DNA from: a virus
IMG/VR virus record: IMGVR_UViG_3300037230_000043
Span: 1-44,224 of that record
Length of the DNA stretch: 44,224 nucleotides
Direction: 5' to 3' (one strand)
Shown one piece after another: positions 2,418 to 37,760 of the stretch. The notes under the pieces are model-generated. The model was not told where the DNA came from and searched no databases. It saw only the letters and a program-made list of their open reading frames with translations. The stretch's first letter is position 1; the number at the start of each line of letters is the position of its first letter. The position numbers were made by a program, and so were the translations under genes.

Positions 2418-2562
2418 TTTTTATTTCCAATCTGAAACCGAGTCCATCTGCGATCAACTTCCGCATGAACTCGCTGTGCGCCATTTTATTGCGCCTGGCT
2501 CCCGCCTTCACTTTGATAAATAGCTCACCCGGAAGAAATACACTTGCCCGAACAGGTTCCAT
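2359..2562 (-). CDS. Ribbon-helix-helix-like small basic protein
   Basis: The 67-residue protein begins MEPVRASVFLPGELFIKVK, continues with a helix-rich segment (NKMAHSEFMRKLIADGL) and ends in a lysine/arginine tail. A short beta strand followed by two helices is the layout of ribbon-helix-helix DNA-binding proteins such as Arc/CopG, though the match is by shape only. The ATG at 2562 lies 8 bases after TACACT. An in-frame GTG at 2580 lies within the operator and is unlikely. As a DNA-binding candidate beside a GCACGTGC site it could be an autoregulator; this is inference. Confidence 0.5.
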   Translation of the reverse strand: MEPVRASVFLPGELFIKVKAGARRNKMAHSEFMRKLIADGLGFRLEIKNDHRSKSTTRKAGKKADAV

Positions 2563-2570
2563 AGGTATGG

Positions 2571-2584
2571 AGTGTAGCACGTGC
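2571..2584 (-). promoter_or_regulatory. Promoter with GCACGTGC operator, site 2
   Basis: GCACGTGC (2577-2584) directly abuts TACACT (2571-2576) on the minus strand, giving an extended -10 with TGC. The ATG of the ribbon-helix-helix-like gene follows 8 bases later, so the leader would be only about two bases long. No good -35 is visible. Confidence 0.6.
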
Positions 2585-2593
2585 GATAGTGTT

Positions 2594-2683
2594 TCACTGA
2601 CGTTTAAGAAACATCATCCATCCAGCCACGAACCAGCAAGCTAATCCGACGAACAGACAGACGTGCACGAAAGCGCTAACCAT
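2594..2683 (-). CDS. 29-residue single-span membrane peptide
   Basis: The reading frame encodes a hydrophobic peptide starting MVSAFVHVCLFVGLACW and ending in FLKRQ. It has one predicted membrane span and a positive tail. GGAGA lies 7 bases before the ATG. The frame overlaps the stop of the upstream small membrane gene by eight bases, as expected for coupled genes. Function is unknown; small phage membrane peptides can be lysis or exclusion factors. Confidence 0.5.
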   Translation of the reverse strand: MVSAFVHVCLFVGLACWFVAGWMMFLKRQ

Positions 2684-2801
2684 TGAGCACTCTCCGCATT
2701 GCTAGATGCTGTCTGCGAGCGAAATTCTCTTCCGCGCGTTTCTGTCTCCAGATCGACCGCGCCAAGTGTAAAACAATCGCGAGAATGAACAAGTGAATCA
2801 T
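2676..2801 (-). CDS. 41-residue small membrane protein
   Basis: The product starts MIHLFILAIVLHLARSIW, a single hydrophobic span, followed by a strongly basic tail. The ATG at 2801 has an excellent ribosome site, GGGAGG, five bases upstream. It also overlaps the stop of the preceding gene by ATGA, which decides the start over the longer frame. The polarity (short outside, basic inside) suggests an inner-membrane protein. No family is recognised. Confidence 0.5.
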   Translation of the reverse strand: MIHLFILAIVLHLARSIWRQKRAEENFARRQHLAMRRVLNG

Positions 2802-3013
2802 GCGAGCCTCCCAAGAAGAGCTACCACCAAAACCTTGCAAGGCGTGTCCGCGACCGAAACACCCGCCTGGAAGCTGACACCGCGCCATTGCGCTTCGTCC
2901 ATCCGGGAAGCCAGCAGCGCCAGCTGGGTCATGGGGACGTTCTCAGACTGAGCAGCCGCCAGAACCATCGTCGCGGCGATCAGTTTTGCTTTGCGCATTT
3001 GGTACCGGTTCAT
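2798..3013 (-). CDS. Small hypothetical protein
   Basis: A 71-residue protein with a helical, alanine-rich first half (AKLIAATMVLAAAQS) that could be a weak signal or membrane segment. A GGAGG ribosome site lies four bases before the ATG. It overlaps its neighbours on both sides by four bases, placing it in a tightly coupled group of small genes (3201 down to 2594). Function is unknown. Confidence 0.5.
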   Translation of the reverse strand: MNRYQMRKAKLIAATMVLAAAQSENVPMTQLALLASRMDEAQWRGVSFQAGVSVADTPCKVLVVALLGRLA

Positions 3014-3201
3014 TTTGCCTCCAGGAGGTAAGTGAGTTCAGCGCACATCCCGGCCGCGTCGCCGTTGCACATCCCGAGAGCGTGCGCGTACCCATGGGGA
3101 CTATCTGGCGACTTGTCGCGCGCCTTGATGGCGAGCGCAGTTTTGAGGAGCGATTCCAGGCTTGCGCGTGGGACTTTTACGAAATCACTTGGCTGCTTCA
3201 T
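3010..3201 (-). CDS. Small hypothetical protein, first gene of a small-gene operon
   Basis: The 63-residue protein (MKQPSDFVKVPRASLESLLK) has a short helical core and a C-terminal segment with two cysteines. It is the first gene behind the operator-bearing promoter at 3208-3235. Its ATG lies six bases after TATGAT, so it is predicted to be translated from a leaderless transcript. Function is unknown. Confidence 0.55.
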   Translation of the reverse strand: MKQPSDFVKVPRASLESLLKTALAIKARDKSPDSPHGYAHALGMCNGDAAGMCAELTYLLEAK

Positions 3202-3207
3202 GAATCT

Positions 3208-3235
3208 ATCATAGACCCATGTCGCACGTGCTCAA
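3208..3235 (-). promoter_or_regulatory. Promoter with GCACGTGC operator, site 3
   Basis: On the minus strand TTGAGC (3230-3235), a 16-base spacer and TATGAT (3208-3213) precede the ATG at 3201 by six bases. The palindrome GCACGTGC (3224-3231) overlaps the -35. A second inverted repeat, TAGTAC-GCTG-GTACTA at 3251-3266, lies just upstream. Its left half is also found near the junction promoter at 44120-44129. Confidence 0.7.
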
Positions 3236-3263
3236 AGGGAATAATCGTCCTAGTACGCTGGTA

Positions 3264-3467
3264 CTACGAAGATCGGCCGTCCTCGACGCTATCCGGGTAT
3301 GTGAAGTGCCCTCGAACTGCCCAGACATCGTCTCGGGTGAGCCGGATCTTTTCCGCTTTCGGCTGAGTCAGGATACGCACTGGGGCTTTGTCACTGAGCG
3401 CCTGCCATTCCGCGTTTCCCCGGTTATTGCGAAAGCCTGGTGCTGGACCGCGTCGATACTGTTTCAT
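3264..3467 (-). CDS. Small basic hypothetical protein
   Basis: A 67-residue basic protein (MKQYRRGPAPGFRNNRGN). It follows the lysozyme-like gene and overlaps its stop by four bases, so it is probably translated from the same message. No family is recognised. It ends at 3264, immediately before the TAGTAC inverted repeat upstream of operator site 3. Confidence 0.45.
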   Translation of the reverse strand: MKQYRRGPAPGFRNNRGNAEWQALSDKAPVRILTQPKAEKIRLTRDDVWAVRGHFTYPDSVEDGRSS

Positions 3468-3937: not shown

Positions 3938-4138
3938 CTATCGCCGGTACGGAGGAAGCGCCATGCCACCTGGAAGGAAGCCGGCAAGGACGTAAATCAG
4001 CCAGATCACCACCACCACGATCACTACGACCCTGATGAGCCGTGTGATTGTCGGGTCCATCGGGAATTGGTTGATACCCCAGAGAATGACCACCACGATC
4101 AGGAGCCCGATGAGAAGCTGAATCAGAACAGGCAACAT
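3938..4138 (-). CDS. Two-span small membrane protein, holin candidate
   Basis: The 66-residue protein has two long hydrophobic spans (about residues 3-22 and 34-54). They are separated by a short loop with PMDPTITRLI, and the protein ends GMALPPYRR. Small two-span proteins with this PMDPTI loop occur widely in phage lysis regions. It lies between a coiled-coil/anchor protein gene and the lysozyme-like gene, which supports a holin or antiholin role. The function is inferred. Confidence 0.6.
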   Translation of the reverse strand: MLPVLIQLLIGLLIVVVILWGINQFPMDPTITRLIRVVVIVVVVIWLIYVLAGFLPGGMALPPYRR

Positions 4139-4147
4139 AGACGCCTC

Positions 4148-4465
4148 CTAATGAGTGTTCTTCAGCATTTGGATGACGAGCACGACGGCGCCCGCGAAGC
4201 CGGAGCCATATCCGATAATCCGCTCTACCAGTCGAAGACGTTTCTCGTGGTCGTCTGTCACCTTCACCACCTGTTCCAAGAACTTTTCCTGGCGTTCGAT
4301 CAGTCTTGTGGTGGCTTCCACCTGATTACGAATGACCTCATACAACTGGCGTTCTTCCATGATGGATACGGTGAGCTTACCATAAGTCAGTGTAGGTAAA
4401 TGGGTTGCGCTCGACATGTCGGTGACCCCCTTTGGTGGAGCCTTGATCAACACCAACTGTTTCAT
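4148..4465 (-). CDS. Coiled-coil protein with C-terminal membrane anchor
   Basis: This 105-residue protein has a central helix rich in E/R/Q (MEERQLYEVIRNQVEATTR onward, about residues 36-78), likely coiled coil. It ends with a single hydrophobic span near the C terminus (GSGFAGAVVLVIQML). The layout resembles XhlA-type or spanin-like lysis accessory proteins. AAAGG lies 7-8 bases before the ATG at 4465. An in-frame ATG at residue 17 is an alternative start. It heads the lysis-like group. Confidence 0.55.
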   Translation of the reverse strand: MKQLVLIKAPPKGVTDMSSATHLPTLTYGKLTVSIMEERQLYEVIRNQVEATTRLIERQEKFLEQVVKVTDDHEKRLRLVERIIGYGSGFAGAVVLVIQMLKNTH

Positions 4466-4497
4466 ATTGCACCTTTATGGCCATGGAAGATATAGAG

Positions 4498-5673
4498 TCA
4501 GAAAGTGATTGGTCCCGACCCGCATTCGTACGGAAGTCCTGTTAAATCAATGACTTTTTCGAGATAAAACGCTGTGAGATTCACCTGGGGAGCAGCCGCG
4601 GCGCCCACCCCGAAGGTCCCGTTCGCGATGTCCTGATCCGTCCAATTCGTCATTGTGACCGGATTCTGCGGAACCGGGATCTGGTAGGTGAAATAATTCT
4701 CCAGCGCGAACGGCGCGTCCGGATTGAGGTCTCCCACCGCTGCGATGGTTTTGTTTCCGACTACGCGTACCGCGGAATCATAATAGACGAAGTCCACGGA
4801 AGGCGTTGCGGTGAGCGGGTTCGGCCGCATACAGGCGTTCCAGGCGAGGCTGAGAATCAGGCCGGAGCATGGAGTTGCGGCCATCTCGAAGACGGCGTCC
4901 GGACCCGTCGCAAGAGCCGCCAGGTACGTCACGTCGCCATCCGGAGATCCCGCGGCCGTCGCCGGCGAATCGTCCACCATCGGATACGATGGGCCCGGCG
5001 TCGATGGCGTCCACTCGCCCGGCTGGAGGTCCGCTATGGGCTCGCTCGAGAGAATCCGTTGCCGGCCGTACTGCCCGGTGAACGGATCGCCGGATTGGCC
5101 GTCCCACACGATGTAATTGTCAATGATCGATCCTGGAGGCCCGAAGCCGGATTGCTGGAATCCCATCGTGTCTGGATTCGTCGTTCCGAAGTTCACCCCG
5201 ATCACTTGTGCTGCAAGGATGCCGTTTTTCCAGAGTTCCGCGCTGCCCGAGGTTCCGAATACCACTTTCAGCTCGAGCGTGCACCACTGGCCGGGTTGGA
5301 AGGCGATACCTTTCTGGCCCACCGTGTTGATCAGGAGCGCGGCGGCGGGCCCGAGGAGATCCATCGAGCCGTCCGGCTTCAGGCGCAGGCTGAAGAGCGT
5401 CGTGGAGAGAAATCCAATGGTGTACCAAACCATCGTCGGCTGAACGCCTGAGGACCACTGCCAGTCCATGTTGAAACCCCAGGTGCCTTGCGGATCGATT
5501 TTAGCGAGGTACTGAACTGATCCGAAGGCGCAGTTTTCAATCCACAGCGCCTGACCGATTCCGTCCCGGCCGGTGATGAGGGAGCCTTGATTGAAGGTGC
5601 GTTGAAAGGCGGAATACTTTACGGCGCCCGGGAAGTACGTGCAGAGATCGAAGCCGTCACAGAAGCGGATCAT
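4498..5673 (-). CDS. Virion protein with concanavalin A-like fold
   Basis: The 391-residue protein starts MIRFCDGFDLCTYF. Its middle has the pattern PGQWCTLELKVVFG...ELWKNG...DNYIVWD, characteristic of lectin/LamG-like (concanavalin A-like) domains in tail-fibre and adhesin proteins. The C-terminal part is another beta-rich module. It is the last of the tail-protein run, consistent with a receptor-binding or minor tail role. The ATG at 5673 overlaps the methyltransferase stop by ATGA, so the longer frame is rejected. No cysteine motif or enzyme site is visible. Confidence 0.6.
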   Translation of the reverse strand: MIRFCDGFDLCTYFPGAVKYSAFQRTFNQGSLITGRDGIGQALWIENCAFGSVQYLAKIDPQGTWGFNMDWQWSSGVQPTMVWYTIGFLSTTLFSLRLKPDGSMDLLGPAAALLINTVGQKGIAFQPGQWCTLELKVVFGTSGSAELWKNGILAAQVIGVNFGTTNPDTMGFQQSGFGPPGSIIDNYIVWDGQSGDPFTGQYGRQRILSSEPIADLQPGEWTPSTPGPSYPMVDDSPATAAGSPDGDVTYLAALATGPDAVFEMAATPCSGLILSLAWNACMRPNPLTATPSVDFVYYDSAVRVVGNKTIAAVGDLNPDAPFALENYFTYQIPVPQNPVTMTNWTDQDIANGTFGVGAAAAPQVNLTAFYLEKVIDLTGLPYECGSGPITF

Positions 5674-32529: not shown

Positions 32530-33257
32530 ATCGGCTCATGACCCGGAAACCCTTTCTGTTTTCGCGCTTCGAATACCTGCTTAAATTTGTTCATTTCAGC
32601 GTTTGCCTTTTCAAGGAACTTTGGCATGTCCGAGAGCTTTCCTTGCCGGCCCCAGTGATTATGGAACTGCGTTAGGTCTCGACGCTGCCACAGCACACCC
32701 ATCTTCAGCGCGACTTCCTGAAGCTCTTCGTCCGGGTACATGTGCGTGTACTCCGGCCACAGTGGACCCTTTCCGCCGTACATTCGCTTTGCGAACTCGC
32801 GCCCGATCCACGCCGACCCGCAGACTCGATCGATGTAGGCGCCGCGGTTCTCGCCGAACCGCTGACGGGATGCCGGTGAATCTCCCCAGCGATCGCCGGT
32901 TGGTTGCATGACGCCGAAGGTCACATAATCGCCGCCCACCACAAATCCCGGATGTTCGAAGAAATATTCTCGGCACTCGCGCGCAATTTCTTCGGCTGAG
33001 TGATTTGGGTCAGGCTCGACGTCATCGCCACCGATGACGAACCATTCCGCGTTCGGGTCGACTTCCAGCGCGTGCCTGACTAGCTCATTAACGGCAACGG
33101 CGTAACCTGGATACTTACCGTGGAGGTTCGCACCTGGAACGTTATCGGCCTCGTCGCGCCACAAAGCCATGAGATAGCCGCGCGACGCCCACTTTTCGAA
33201 CCACGCGCGCACCTGCTCAACAGGCCGTGCCGATGGCACACACACCCAAACACTCAT
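32526..33257 (-). CDS. Glycosyltransferase-like protein, GT-A fold
   Basis: The 243-residue protein starts MSVWVCVPSARPVEQVRAWF. It contains WFVIGGDDVEPDPN (DxD-type site), VVGGDYVTFGVMQP, SAWIGREFAKRM, and YPDEELQEVALKMG near the end. This order fits GT-A glycosyltransferases. AGGAGG lies eight bases before the ATG, and the ATG overlaps the upstream stop. Upstream in-frame sequence is a shadow of the neighbouring gene. It is likely to act with the adjacent GT2. Confidence 0.65.
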   Translation of the reverse strand: MSVWVCVPSARPVEQVRAWFEKWASRGYLMALWRDEADNVPGANLHGKYPGYAVAVNELVRHALEVDPNAEWFVIGGDDVEPDPNHSAEEIARECREYFFEHPGFVVGGDYVTFGVMQPTGDRWGDSPASRQRFGENRGAYIDRVCGSAWIGREFAKRMYGGKGPLWPEYTHMYPDEELQEVALKMGVLWQRRDLTQFHNHWGRQGKLSDMPKFLEKANAEMNKFKQVFEARKQKGFPGHEPI

Positions 33258-34000
33258 CCGAGAATCCTCCTGACTCTTTCGTCCCACTCTGGAACTCGTT
33301 TCCAGGTTATCGGTGTTCCTTGATGCTTGACGTGGTGCTCCAGGTTGTAAGCGTGTCTCGATGCGTTGCCCGCGTGGATGCGCGCGATCATGCGCGGTTC
33401 GTCCTGCACCGATGGAACCGTTTTGACGTTCAACCCCTTCAGCCATGGGCCGTATTCGGAGCCGCCTTGCGGGCCTGGTGCGTCTGCGAATTTCTGTTTC
33501 TCCCAGGTCTTCCGCCAGTAGCAGAGCGAGGTTCCCAGCGCTGGCACAACCCCCGGAATGACCGTGTAGAGCCACGCTTGCCCATCGCGACCGATTCCGG
33601 CGCTTCGCCAGAACAGCATATCGTTATACCCGACCACATCCGCGCCGCTTGTTTGCAAAAGCTCGACTTGCTCCGCGATGCGGTTTGGGTGATTGTGATC
33701 ATCATCGTCCCAGTGCACGAAGATTTCCGGATTTATCGAATCTATCGCGCACTCGGCCGCGTCGTTGCGAAGCTCGCCTATTGTCACGCCCTCGACTGGC
33801 CCGATGATGCACGGCTCGTGAAGTTGCGAAGATGTATCAAGCGCCTCGGGGTCTTCGAGCAGTGGCCCACGCGGAGCAGTGTTCCAAACCAGCAGCCGCT
33901 TCTTCTCATACGTTTGTGCTCTGAAGCATTCGACCGCTTTCCGGGCCAGTTCCGGGCGGTCTCGGGTTAACATGATGGCGCAGACGGTGGGTTCGCTCAC
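33254..34000 (-). CDS. Glycosyltransferase family 2
   Basis: The 248-residue product starts (GTG) SEPTVCAIMLTRDRPELARK, a standard GT2 N terminus. It has GVTIGELRNDAAE and a four-aspartate metal site (VHWDDDDHNHPN), then AWLYTVIPGVVPALG. The GTG at 34000 has an AGGAG site eight bases upstream. An ATG at 34060, 20 codons earlier, lies eight bases after TATAGT and would give a leaderless message. It is the first gene of the glycan cassette and lies directly behind operator site 5. Confidence 0.75.
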   Translation of the reverse strand: MSEPTVCAIMLTRDRPELARKAVECFRAQTYEKKRLLVWNTAPRGPLLEDPEALDTSSQLHEPCIIGPVEGVTIGELRNDAAECAIDSINPEIFVHWDDDDHNHPNRIAEQVELLQTSGADVVGYNDMLFWRSAGIGRDGQAWLYTVIPGVVPALGTSLCYWRKTWEKQKFADAPGPQGGSEYGPWLKGLNVKTVPSVQDEPRMIARIHAGNASRHAYNLEHHVKHQGTPITWKRVPEWDERVRRILG

Positions 34001-34068
34001 GCTACTATCTCCTTGAGCTCCTTGATTTGCGCTTCGACGATGGGTTTGTGGTTTTGGCATACCGCGTC

Positions 34069-34092
34069 ACTATATCACATCGTCGCACGTAC
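34069..34092 (-). promoter_or_regulatory. Promoter with variant operator GTACGTGC, site 5
   Basis: On the minus strand GAGTACGTGCGACG (palindrome core 34085-34092, one base off GCACGTGC) is followed ten bases later by TATAGT (34069-34074). An ATG comes eight bases after that. The surroundings match sites 3 and 7 (GAGCACGTGCGAC). No good -35 is seen. It should drive the glycan cassette. Confidence 0.55.
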
Positions 34093-34278
34093 TCAGGAAG
34101 CGGGTTCTTTCAGTTTGGTACTTTTTATCTTGATCGGGCGAAATTCCGCGCACCAGTCGTCTTTGTGTTTGTCCACCACTGCATTTGGAAAGCGTCGACA
34201 GATTCCGTACGCCGCCGGATTAAACGGGCCGGTGTTCGGCTTGAAGCATTCGCAGGTCGCACAGGTTGGCCCAGGCAT
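34093..34278 (-). CDS. Small cysteine-rich zinc-binding protein
   Basis: The 61-residue protein has CATCECFKP and GICRRFPNAV, then DWCAEFRP. This four- to five-cysteine layout with a WCxEF segment is common among small phage and plasmid proteins. It probably binds zinc. It lies immediately after the large terminase and ends just before operator site 5. Function is unknown. Confidence 0.65.
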   Translation of the reverse strand: MPGPTCATCECFKPNTGPFNPAAYGICRRFPNAVVDKHKDDWCAEFRPIKIKSTKLKEPAS

Positions 34279-34291
34279 GCTGTTCAGCCTA

Positions 34292-36595
34292 TCAGAAGCG
34301 CGAAATCACGACACGGTCATTCCCGAATAGCGCTCTGGTCGTTACGACCTGATCCGGATCGAGCAGTAATTCGTACACCGCCCACACCAGCGCATCCATC
34401 CGATCCGGCGACTTCCCAGAGATTCCAGGAACGAAGCTACACATTTGCTGCTCGAGCTCCGGGAAGTTCCCGACATGATGCACTCGGCCCTGCTCGTAAA
34501 GCGCCGCCACTGGTTCAGCTCGGACCGATTTCCCGCGCGAAGCCCGCACCGCATGAAACGGCGCGTTCGGTGAGACGGCCCGGATATTCATTTCCACCAA
34601 GTCGCCGCCGTTGTTCACCTCGCCCACGATTTTATCGGCCTTGTGCCGGTTGAACGCCGCGACCGCGACGCGCGCCCATTGGAGCGGAGATTCTTTGCAG
34701 GTCAAATCCTCGATCACGATTACATGGGCCGTATCGGTGAGCGCCGCGACCACAATGCCAGTATCGTCCGAGTTCTCGCCGGCCGTCACTGCTGGGTCGA
34801 TCGCTACGACGATTCTGACGAGCTGGTCCCACTTGATTTCTCTGAGCTTGATTTTGTAGGCGTCGATCAGTATTTGAGTCCACAGCGCTCCTGGAACATC
34901 ATCGAGCAACTCCGCATCGAGCTCCTGCCTGCCGATTCTGGTTCCTTCGTATTTCCGAATGATGGAGTCGAAAAACGCCGGCGCCAGGTTCGCCCGGTTC
35001 TCGTAGCTCGACGCCCGGGTAACTACGGTATGCGGATCCGCGATGATGTCGATCAGAAGTTTGATCGGCTTCGGCGTGGTGGTGATGATTCCTCGCGGGT
35101 CGTCTCCAAGCCGGAACCCGAACATCAGGTTGTCCCATGCCTCTTGACCGAAACGCCAGGCGGCCAGCTCATCCGCCCAGAAATGATCGCAATTGTGAAC
35201 AAGGGTTCCATTTGCGAAGAACTCGTGTTCGCCCTCAATCTGGAGATCGTATACGGGGATTCGCCGACTTAAGGCTTCTACGGATGCGATTCTTGCCATG
35301 GAAATCAACGGCACATTTTCTGGAGCAGAACCGCGCGTTCGTTCGCAAGCTGACGAAACTCCCGCCGCAGTGACCGCAAACAACGCCCCTTCGCTCAAGT
35401 GTTCCGCTACGGGCTGCCGCTGCCTGCTGATTGCAAGATCGTCCACAATATCTCTGTGCGCGCTTGATCGCAACGAAGGGACCGCCGCACTGCTGGCACA
35501 TTCGATTCTCGCCACTGAATTTGATGTCGCGCGCCTGGTCGATACACCGCTCAGAACAGTACGCGGACGGTCGCCGCGCTCCGCTTCGATAGCTTCCTCC
35601 GCACACGCAGCACCTAAGCTCCCTAGTCGCGACTCGAAGCGCTCGATTCCGTGCCGTTGCCAGAATAGAACCGGCAGTCGCGCGCGCTTGGTGTGGAGCC
35701 AGTTTTTCCCGGCAATGGATGCGGTTATGCTCTGAACTGCTGAGCAGTTGCAGGTTTTCGATTCGATTATTGTGGATATCTCCGTCAATGTGATGAATGT
35801 GGTGGTTTGGCGGAATTGGCCCTTTTGCTGCCGCCCACACTTCGCGGTGCAAGAGTAGCCGGGTCTGGTAGTAACTGCCTCCAGGTTTCTTGTGCCACGT
35901 CTTTCCGTCCCACTCGATACAGGCGTCACACATACCCGGTGATCTCCTGTCGCAACTATACTTCGTCCGTCCAGAAGTTTCAAGCGAAATACATCAGCGC
36001 TCGAACTTGTCATCCTTGAACGAATGACGCGCCGCGCGCCAGCCCGCGTCATCACATATTCGCCTTCTAAGACCACGGCTATCGGCTTTTCACTTCCATC
36101 GGCCATCAAGACGCGGGTGTCGCCGGAGACACACTGTGGGCCTCTCAAACGCTCTGGCTCATCGGCCGAGAACAGATGCGCCGTCGCGCCCGTCGAGAAC
36201 GTTACGAGGCGCTTTGATGGTTCGTACAGTGGCCGTTTCTCGGGAGGAAAACAGTTCAGGAGTCCGGATTCTCCCTGCACCATGACGTCCCGGACGTCGC
36301 CCGCGGTCGATCCGACCAGATGAATGATGCGCGCGCCTTCGTCTACGTACTCGCGGATCGCTTCGGCGCCAGTGCGCGTTTTTCCGAATCCGCGGCCGGC
36401 TTGCACCAGCCAGTAGCGCCAGTCTCCTAGAGGTCGGATTTGATTCTTGCGGGCTTTGTAGCCTCGCCAGGTGTACAGCAGCTCACGTTGCTGCTGCTCC
36501 GTCAGCCCGCTCAGAACTTCCCGTCTCTCGCCTTCGCTCAAGGATGCGAGCAATTCCTCGTTCGAGCTGTTCGACTGGAGATATTGCAATTTCAA
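34292..36595 (-). CDS. terL: Large terminase subunit with intein
   Basis: The 767-residue reading frame holds terminase residues 1-154, an intein (155-468) and terminase residues 469-767; splicing gives 453 residues, normal for TerL. The ATPase Walker A is QAGRGFGKT (65-73) and Walker B is HFWADELAAW, just after the intein. The nuclease domain shows VVAIDPAVTAG, EVNNGGDLVEMN and PDRMDALVWAVYEL. It translocates DNA into the prohead through portal. The start is TTG at 36595 or, better spaced from GGGGA, TTG at 36589. The N terminus overlaps terS by about 113 bases. Confidence 0.92.
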   Translation of the reverse strand: MKLQYLQSNSSNEELLASLSEGERREVLSGLTEQQQRELLYTWRGYKARKNQIRPLGDWRYWLVQAGRGFGKTRTGAEAIREYVDEGARIIHLVGSTAGDVRDVMVQGESGLLNCFPPEKRPLYEPSKRLVTFSTGATAHLFSADEPERLRGPQCVSGDTRVLMADGSEKPIAVVLEGEYVMTRAGARRVIRSRMTSSSADVFRLKLLDGRSIVATGDHRVCVTPVSSGTERRGTRNLEAVTTRPGYSCTAKCGRQQKGQFRQTTTFITLTEISTIIESKTCNCSAVQSITASIAGKNWLHTKRARLPVLFWQRHGIERFESRLGSLGAACAEEAIEAERGDRPRTVLSGVSTRRATSNSVARIECASSAAVPSLRSSAHRDIVDDLAISRQRQPVAEHLSEGALFAVTAAGVSSACERTRGSAPENVPLISMARIASVEALSRRIPVYDLQIEGEHEFFANGTLVHNCDHFWADELAAWRFGQEAWDNLMFGFRLGDDPRGIITTTPKPIKLLIDIIADPHTVVTRASSYENRANLAPAFFDSIIRKYEGTRIGRQELDAELLDDVPGALWTQILIDAYKIKLREIKWDQLVRIVVAIDPAVTAGENSDDTGIVVAALTDTAHVIVIEDLTCKESPLQWARVAVAAFNRHKADKIVGEVNNGGDLVEMNIRAVSPNAPFHAVRASRGKSVRAEPVAALYEQGRVHHVGNFPELEQQMCSFVPGISGKSPDRMDALVWAVYELLLDPDQVVTTRALFGNDRVVISRF
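35235..35933 (-). CDS. HNH homing endonuclease nested in the intein in another frame
   Basis: The 232-residue product has HREVWAAAKGPIPPN followed by HHIHHIDGDIHNNRIENLQ, an HNH_3-type catalytic motif. Three zinc-finger-like repeats of the CxxCGG...CSxxC type follow (CCVCGG, CQQCGG, CGHCGG). Its frame differs from the terminase/intein frame, which stays open throughout. AGGAG lies ten bases before the ATG, and a TTGAAA-N17-TATAGT promoter lies just upstream. Its 3' end overlaps intein block F. It probably makes the double-strand break that spreads the intein. Confidence 0.88.
   Translation of the reverse strand: MCDACIEWDGKTWHKKPGGSYYQTRLLLHREVWAAAKGPIPPNHHIHHIDGDIHNNRIENLQLLSSSEHNRIHCREKLAPHQARATAGSILATARNRALRVATRELRCCVCGGSYRSGARRPSAYCSERCIDQARDIKFSGENRMCQQCGGPFVAIKRAQRYCGRSCNQQAAAARSGTLERRGVVCGHCGGSFVSLRTNARFCSRKCAVDFHGKNRIRRSLKSANPRIRSPD
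35955..35983 (-). promoter_or_regulatory. Promoter for the nested HNH gene
   Basis: On the minus strand TTGAAA (35978-35983), an exact 17-base spacer and TATAGT (35955-35960) give a near-consensus promoter. It starts transcription about 15 bases before the ATG at 35933 and directly before AGGAG. These bases also encode intein residues (FRLKLLDGRSIV), so the promoter is embedded in coding sequence. Confidence 0.6.
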
Positions 36596-36881
36596 GTTCC
36601 CCGTGCGGACCGGAACCCAGTAGCTTGATTTCCTCAGCCGACTTGTATCCGTTCCGGTTCAGAATATCCTGTGCCACCGCAACCGCAACCCGCACGTCTT
36701 TCTTTTGGCCCAGCGCTCGCGTCAGCACCCCGATTGCCGGATCTACCAGAGCCGCAAGTCTCAATGCTGCCGATCGCTTGACCTGGGGAGCGGCCCCGCC
36801 GTGCATCGTACAAACTTTGCCGCCGGCGATTGCGTGGCGTCTGCACTGGTTACCGCTTCGCGCGTGAGCTGAGCACTGCAT
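36483..36881 (-). CDS. terS: Small terminase subunit
   Basis: The 132-residue protein starts MQCSAHARSGNQCRRHAI, continues GGKVCTMHGGAAPQVKR, and has a helical centre and basic tail. The Cys/His cluster ending in MHGGxAPQVK is typical of a group of TerS proteins that recognise DNA and stimulate TerL. It lies directly upstream of terL and overlaps it by more than 100 bases in another frame. Confidence 0.75.
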   Translation of the reverse strand: MQCSAHARSGNQCRRHAIAGGKVCTMHGGAAPQVKRSAALRLAALVDPAIGVLTRALGQKKDVRVAVAVAQDILNRNGYKSAEEIKLLGSGPHGELEIAISPVEQLERGIARILERRRETGSSERADGAAAT

Positions 36882-36909
36882 TTATCACAGGTTACCTATT
36901 TCCATGGGG

Positions 36910-37185
36910 TTACGCTATCTTTCCGGTTTCTCTGGCGTATTCCATCCGCCGGTCGGATTGCGGCTGGGTTCGTTTCATCGGGCGAAGCGTGCGTAACCGC
37001 CTGACTTTGTTACACATGACCGCAAGCGCGTCTGGATCAACACCTTCCGGCTTCGGGTCCCAGAAATCAGACACCTGCAGAGGTGGCTTCCGCTTCCTCC
37101 AGTCCAAGGGGAGTTGTTCAAGCCGCATATCCGGCCACCCGGCTTTGATGGCTTGCTCGAGTTCGCTCATCTCTGGGAGGCTCAT
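36910..37185 (-). CDS. Small hypothetical protein upstream of terS
   Basis: The 91-residue protein starts MSLPEMSELEQAIKAGWPDM and contains QVSDFWDPKPEGVDPDAL. It is basic toward the end (RRLRTLRPMKRTQ). The ATG at 37185 overlaps the previous stop as ATGA, so the longer frame is a shadow. No family is recognised. Position between replication-type and packaging genes gives no clear role. Confidence 0.55.
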   Translation of the reverse strand: MSLPEMSELEQAIKAGWPDMRLEQLPLDWRKRKPPLQVSDFWDPKPEGVDPDALAVMCNKVRRLRTLRPMKRTQPQSDRRMEYARETGKIA

Positions 37186-37760
37186 CGACTTACAATCCGT
37201 TCCTTCAGTTCCCGCAAGATTTGCTCGTTTTCCGCTGGTGTGCGCTTCATGCTTCCCGGAATCCGGATAGGCGCAACCGGCATCTTGAGAATGTCGCCAA
37301 GTCGCCTGTGGGCTTCGTCCCGTTTCGCTTCTAGCTGAATCCGCTCCTGTGCGCGCGATATTGGGTCCACTTCTACTTTGCCCAGCGGCTTCCACTTGCC
37401 GTCTACCAGTTCCGCAACCTCGCCGGCCACCAGCATCTTCTGGGCGCGCGGTGCCTCGATCTGCTGGTAGGATGCCGCAGCTTCGCCATCCTCCGCCGTG
37501 AATCCCGCTATTGAGCAATTTGCCTCAATTCCATCTGCCGGCTTGAATCTGGTGCAGAATACGCCGCGGAGTTCATTCGGCCCTGGCCACTCATTTAAGC
37601 GACTAACGATGGTGTCAATTAGCCACGCTAGATGCTTGTCGTTATCTACCATGCGAATCAGTAGTTTCGCGATTTCCGCCCGCGGCGGTGTTTCACTTGG
37701 GAAGTACTTCAAGATGGCCATCCGGGATACGGCCGCCGCTGCCTGCTCTTTTGTGATCAT
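37182..37760 (-). CDS. Hypothetical protein, replication-module partner
   Basis: The 192-residue helical protein starts MITKEQAAAAVSRMAILKYF and has IDTIVSRLNEWPGPNELRGV. It is rich in K/R/E at the C terminus (RIQLEAKRDEAHRRLGDIL). Its ATG overlaps the initiator-like gene stop as ATGA. Proteins in this place can be helicase loaders, but no loader (AAA+) motif is present. Function is unknown. Confidence 0.55.
   Translation of the reverse strand: MITKEQAAAAVSRMAILKYFPSETPPRAEIAKLLIRMVDNDKHLAWLIDTIVSRLNEWPGPNELRGVFCTRFKPADGIEANCSIAGFTAEDGEAAASYQQIEAPRAQKMLVAGEVAELVDGKWKPLGKVEVDPISRAQERIQLEAKRDEAHRRLGDILKMPVAPIRIPGSMKRTPAENEQILRELKERIVSR

Follow-up and report, generated by a model that had tools for sequence, protein, structure and literature searches.

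The endonuclease genes found as open reading frames in group I introns, such as those for I-TevI and I-HmuI, lie within an element that splices, are not in the frame of the host gene and have their own expression signals. The locus described here, in the terminase large subunit gene (terL) of a virus, also carries a nested endonuclease gene that is out of frame with its host gene and has signals of its own. It differs in that splicing would take place at the protein level, no intron being detected, and the host-frame reading must therefore stay open.

Canonical inteins of the PI-SceI type consist of a Hint domain with the endonuclease inserted between blocks B and F as a same-frame domain of the intein polypeptide. 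An HNH intein of this kind is that of Dalgaard et al. 1997, as cited in the accessible part of PMC5050341, and the KLEP7 RNA ligase intein served as in-frame control. The present element has the Hint domain and the usual insertion site, whereas its endonuclease is a separate gene in the -1 frame and not in the Hint frame, as an endonuclease-bearing intein of the canonical kind would require. Naturally split inteins (fractured genes of the gp41-1 and NrdJ-1 type) are similar in that a freestanding-type endonuclease gene is located between the Hint halves. Their halves are encoded in two ORFs, whereas here the intein is contiguous and its frame is open across the gene, within one ORF.

Among published cases, the closest that we found is an HNH lying out of frame in a phage methylase, the ShiLan domain (PMC11855218). 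In both loci the insert is open in the host-gene frame and encodes a zinc-finger HNH in a different one, and both have a patchy distribution suggesting homing. The ShiLan insert has no intein splicing domains, no known means of removal, a non-essential host gene and no detectable ribosome binding site. Here, a complete Hint intein surrounds the HNH, so that the locus is not of the ShiLan type, the host gene is mostly that of the terminase large subunit, and ribosome binding site and promoter signals are enriched.

The mycobacteriophage TerL6-f intein (Chandler gp6) is likewise a TerL intein with an endonuclease in the -1 frame, of the endonuclease VII type, unlike the HNH_3 type of the present locus. 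According to the accessible part of PMC5050341, it spliced readily in a reporter assay; for two other inteins that part connects endonuclease activity with identifiable domains, and it does not mention the Chandler ORF. We found no description of an out-of-frame endonuclease inside an intein in the open-licence PMC literature. A preprint outside that scope (Gosselin et al. 2025, bioRxiv 10.1101/2025.01.02.630785) may describe related cases; the ShiLan paper (PMC11855218), as far as its text was available, cites it for overlapping frames in actinophages.

The terL intein and its nested HNH gene

The window, i.e. the whole stretch of DNA that was analysed, is the 44,224-base virus record IMGVR_UViG_3300037230_000043. 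The features of its terL region are listed in Table 1. The upstream start of terL is unsettled, with a TTG at position 36595. An ORF located directly downstream of terL (33254-34060) resembles a family 2 glycosyltransferase by eye and has no PHROGs match.

Table 1. Features of the terL intein locus, in window coordinates.
Feature	Position	Strand	Details
TerL ORF	36595-34292	minus	767 aa, one ORF
TerL N-extein (ATPase part up to RLRGPQ)	36134..36595	minus	PF03237 on both sides of the intein
Intein	35192..36133	minus	314 aa, Cys1 to Asn314, TerL frame, +1 residue Cys
Hint N-terminal half (block A and block B TGDH), residues 1-66	35936..36133	minus	AlphaFold
Promoter-like TTGAAA-17-TATAGT	35955..35983	minus	10/12 match; within intein coding sequence, just upstream of block B
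Shine-Dalgarno AGGAG	35944..35948	minus	10 nt before ATG, within codons T-G-D of block B (TGDH)
HNH homing-endonuclease gene	35235..35933	minus	232 aa, ATG start, frame -1 (+2) relative to intein
Intein-frame reading of the overlap, intein residues 71-270	35324..35923	minus	Open, unconserved, predicted disordered spacer
HNH_3 nuclease core, residues 27-71	35721..35855	minus	PF13392
Three CxxC-pair zinc-ribbon repeats	35322..35612	minus	Repeats 1-2: invariant cysteines in two alignments; third seen in sequence
Hint C-terminal half (blocks F and G, ending VHN)	35192..35311	minus	TIGR01443, AlphaFold
TerL C-extein (Walker B onward, nuclease domain)	34292..35191	minus	PF03237, PF17289

The intein is bordered by RLRGPQ and by C, and is in frame with TerL; the intein-less TerL proteins of relatives L030 and L014 align through the insertion site. 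Its first residues are CVSGDT, block B reads TGDH, and FFANGTLVHN is the end before the Cys; CVSGDT, TGDH and VHN|C are conserved in relatives. Thus the residues that define an intein are present, i.e. the nucleophilic Cys1, TxxH in block B and the C-terminal HN followed by Cys, and the intein family profiles PF14890, TIGR01445 and TIGR01443 all match above cut-off. The AlphaFold model of the intein has a Hint fold, for which the gp41-1 intein (6qaz) is the nearest PDB structure by Foldseek. Mean pLDDT per ten-residue block is 94-97 for residues 1-60, 70 for residues 61-70 and 67-97 for residues 271-314, and falls to about 42 for the spacer in between.

Other members retain, downstream of block B, a stretch of about 20 residues that is missing from the window intein and from L062, its closest relative (window 35936-35953). 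The start of the HNH gene consequently abuts block B, and the splicing efficiency of the window intein is uncertain. The first residues of the spacer (ERRG...RPG) resemble the missing Hint segment, as if it had been overprinted. L062 has no such resemblance and we judged it to be due to chance.

The HNH ORF matches PF13392 (E 9e-16) and phrog_15471 (E 1e-23). Residues H47, H48, N56, H69 and H73 of the HNH_3 core, as well as the Cys pairs, are invariant in relatives, and the AlphaFold model of this reading is well folded (mean pLDDT 89). A Foldseek comparison of the model with the PDB gave no significant match, the best-ranked homing endonuclease being I-HmuI (E 0.086), and a phmmer search against the PDB gave none either. 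The AGGAG has a duplex energy of -7.4 and its spacing to the start codon is long.

The first-pass annotation had proposed a TerL-frame intein running from CVSGDT to HN before a Cys, a complete out-of-frame HNH gene with three zinc-finger-like repeats, an intein frame open across that gene and a 3' end of the gene overlapping block F. All four were borne out: the coordinates of the intein hold, the HNH reading is complete, there are no intein-frame stops across it, and its stop codon overlaps block F by 19 nt. The same annotation had put both the promoter and the AGGAG inside block B. This is correct for the AGGAG; the promoter exists as a pattern and was misplaced.

Recurrence in relatives and selection on the two frames

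Nine IMG/VR TerL inteins, with HNH proteins 37-49% identical, have the HNH at the same offset and an open intein frame, as does L003, which is at another site in another TerL. A wider search gave 103 HNH clusters at 80% identity, 67 of which are nested in a longer ORF on the same strand, 66 at the offset of the window and one (L143) at the other. The spanning ORFs of the 66 match PF14890 (Intein_splicing) in 62 cases and TIGR01443 (intein_Cterm) in 59. The host genes of nested clusters belong mostly to terminase families, and two are portal proteins. Sequenced phages with this layout include Acinetobacter phage Highwayman (OZ038341), Tetrasphaera phage TJE1 (HQ225832) and Rhodobacteraceae phage LS06 (OP947163).

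A survey by intein alignment found the HNH at -1 in 73 of 80 cases, together with six mini-inteins and one other. It should be noted that this survey is partly biased, as its query includes the out-of-frame region. Single-sequence scans with the N-intein gave almost no matches, and a scan for the C-terminal motif E[YF]FANGxxVHN was used instead, which is not ranked by similarity and is free of that bias. It found 66 of 80 with the HNH at -1, four mini-inteins, one long intein without HNH and nine incomplete ones; the two surveys overlap partly. Relatives with the same HNH in the intein frame had been named beforehand as what would refute the nested layout. We looked for them, and there were none in each of three surveys. 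In a large class of phage terminase inteins the nested layout is the usual one, which the first-pass annotation had not foreseen, and well over a hundred phage inteins have it.

Some loci show further variation. Only in L143 (3805-4548, a Planctomycetota MAG) does the HNH occupy the remaining alternative frame; the intein frame of this locus has no stops where 7.1 were expected. L123 has two inteins in one TerL gene (1060-1875 and 2557-3348), each with its own -1-frame HNH. In L004, a TerL bearing an intein with a nested HNH has a second intein, a mini-intein without endonuclease (4091-4543), close to its C-terminus.

For the window alone, synonymous shuffling of the HNH gene gave a probability of no intein-frame stops of 0.07 for the whole ORF and 0.27 for the core. 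We therefore rejected the openness of this one frame as proof; being only mildly improbable, it gains its significance from the relatives. In the 66 nested clusters, no intein-frame stops were found across the endonuclease, compared with about 121 expected from synonymous shuffling, whereas the 36 non-nested, freestanding clusters had 199 against 186 expected and thus no depletion. The clusters are not phylogenetically independent.

In L023, L027 and L029, substitutions fall mainly at intein third positions outside the overlap and at HNH third positions inside it. The dN/dS of the HNH is 0.10-0.19 for the closest pairs. Within the overlap, identity in the intein frame is close to that in the unused frame (for instance 0.30 and 0.27 for the window against L062), indicating that openness is all that is conserved in the spacer, and we rejected a conserved function for it. 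The best explanation is that selection acts on the Hint protein, on the endonuclease protein and on the absence of intein-frame stops over the overlap.

The layout is not limited to HNH_3. The helicase intein of Xanthomonas phage FoX3 (MT161383; L389 1627-2427) has a LAGLIDADG_2 ORF at -1 (PF03161, E 9e-22), and its open intein frame is significant on its own (P 0.007, synonymous shuffle). Endonuclease_7 ORFs in the -1 frame are found in the TerL inteins of L054 (1948-2343) and L055 (2980-3606). Endonuclease VII at -1 is also found in the mycobacteriophages Phlyer, Chandler and Vincenzo and in Gordonia phage Angelicage; in the TerL intein of Chandler gp6 (KP027207; L396 1147-1698) the ORF matches PF02945. 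In these GC-rich actinophages the open frame is not significant singly (P 0.06-0.67). The reported splicing of the Chandler gp6 intein lends support to the view that an intein with a spacer of this type can splice.

Expression and role of the nested gene

The demonstrated anatomy, its recurrence, the absence of stops, the codon-position pattern and the enrichment of start signals are in our view best explained by a mobile intein with a homing endonuclease encoded by a distinct gene that overlaps it. We give this reading a probability of about 0.8; splicing of this precursor, expression of the endonuclease, cleavage and homing are inferred. In brief, a ribosome translating terL would read through in frame 0, and in the resulting precursor about 200 unstructured residues would separate the two Hint halves. 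The Hint domain would then splice out itself together with the spacer and ligate TerL. Independent initiation, from the internal promoter and the Shine-Dalgarno sequence written in intein codons, would give the -1-frame endonuclease with its HNH and zinc ribbons. This enzyme is predicted to cut intein-less terL, leading to copying of the whole element. For the HNH, the evidence of homing consists only of the patchy distribution and the empty sites.

The HNH could instead be a DNA-packaging accessory that is kept near TerL and is not a homing enzyme. Freestanding relatives adjoin terminase genes in BP10, PAE1, CL2 and EauM-23, and phage HNH proteins have been linked to packaging (Kala et al. 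2014, as cited in the accessible part of PMC12613952). An accessory of this kind is difficult to reconcile with the patchy presence of the gene: there are HNH-less mini-inteins at the same site (L039 and L042) as well as the intein-less terL of L030 and L014, and in L001 the HNH is dead by two in-frame TGA codons in an intein that is intact and open. Moreover, two nested cases are in portal genes, and unrelated endonucleases occupy the same place in other inteins. We consider this role quite unlikely and retain that of a homing endonuclease.

As to how the nested gene is expressed, each of the 65 nested genes examined has a start codon, generally located a few codons ahead of the conserved core. 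A strong Shine-Dalgarno sequence was found for 60% of nested genes and 9% of control windows. Sigma-70-like promoters within 110 nt upstream were found for 31 of 66 genes, compared with 9.9 expected when codons were resampled with the protein held constant and 3 on the antisense strand; at a match of at least 10/12 there were 21 sites against 3.0 expected. It should be noted that these sites are not independent events, since related clades share some of them, and that a strong Shine-Dalgarno sequence is missing from about 40% of nested genes and a promoter-like site from about half.

Programmed -1 ribosomal frameshifting near block B, giving an N-intein-HNH fusion with no separate gene, would account for nearly all nested cases being at -1, where such slippage leads. 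The starts above do not fit it, being universal in the tested set with strong enrichment of Shine-Dalgarno sequences. Slippery heptamers (X_XXY_YYZ) occur in only 13% of nested loci against 8% of control windows, and in many loci a stop codon close to the start of the HNH ORF closes its frame on the upstream side. The offset itself has a simpler explanation in stop content: the +1 reading of these genes has few stops (about 5 per freestanding gene) and the +2 reading many (about 14), in freestanding relatives too, so that a consistent -1 offset need not mean frameshifting. We regard frameshifting as very unlikely. Start codons, enriched Shine-Dalgarno sequences and promoters, scarcely enriched slippery sites and the frame constraint indicate together that the endonuclease is encoded by an autonomous gene overlapping the intein, whose own reading of the region is an unstructured spacer. 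The proposal of the first-pass annotation, an out-of-frame homing gene that has kept expression signals of its own, is thereby supported by comparative evidence.

Split relatives do exist (Vibrio phages 1.238.A and 1.245.O, and L145 from Patescibacteria), and the element could in principle be an intein that works only as a split intein from two ORFs, or else an RNA intron. Both are hardly tenable, as there is no Rfam match within 34000-37500 and as the frame is kept open in 66 clusters, which neither an intron nor a split intein needs. Finally, two compensating frameshifts, put forward as an alternative in the first-pass annotation, or a sequencing or assembly error, might have displaced an in-frame endonuclease; nothing beyond the frame offset itself speaks for this and it can be set aside, as the same offset occurs in 65 other clusters, sequenced isolates such as Highwayman, TJE1 and LS06 included, and no in-frame relative was found.

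Evolutionary states and implications of the nested layout

The split state was seen only in three relatives that have intein-frame stops and an HNH between the Hint halves (L170 2322-3293, L174 2256-3227 and L145 3950-4600) and, as a remnant, in L166. In Brochothrix phage BL3 (L166 1900-2585), the terL region is annotated as gp2 and gp3, and the break lies within an intein bearing only a C-terminal remnant of the HNH.

On a tree that is weakly resolved, nested and free HNH genes are separated by 12 parsimony changes, 4 of which are forced by well-supported branches. The earlier suggestion that the gene "colonised" the intein is plausible and only partly demonstrated, its support being the HNH-less mini-inteins at the same site and these several changes between nested and free. 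Since some relatives are split, the contiguous and split states may interconvert.

We lean towards the view that inteins gained endonucleases by a second route, namely as whole -1-frame overlapping genes with their own signals. This would have happened several times and with at least three nuclease families (HNH_3, LAGLIDADG and endonuclease VII), the intein-frame reading being only a stop-free spacer. Loss of the open frame would then lead to split inteins and provide a link to fractured genes.

A search for endonuclease domains in the intein frame would miss this class, whose members would look like long inteins without endonuclease. For protein engineers, the layout suggests that a Hint domain can accommodate an unconserved spacer of about 200 residues. 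The series of sequences, from the mini-intein via the nested gene, the nested gene with a dead enzyme, the split intein with the enzyme between its halves and the split intein with a remnant to the freestanding neighbour, is a test bed for the origin of split inteins. With this layout the splicing element and the mobility gene can be regulated apart, and a homing enzyme that has a promoter of its own can be made without waiting for terL to be expressed.
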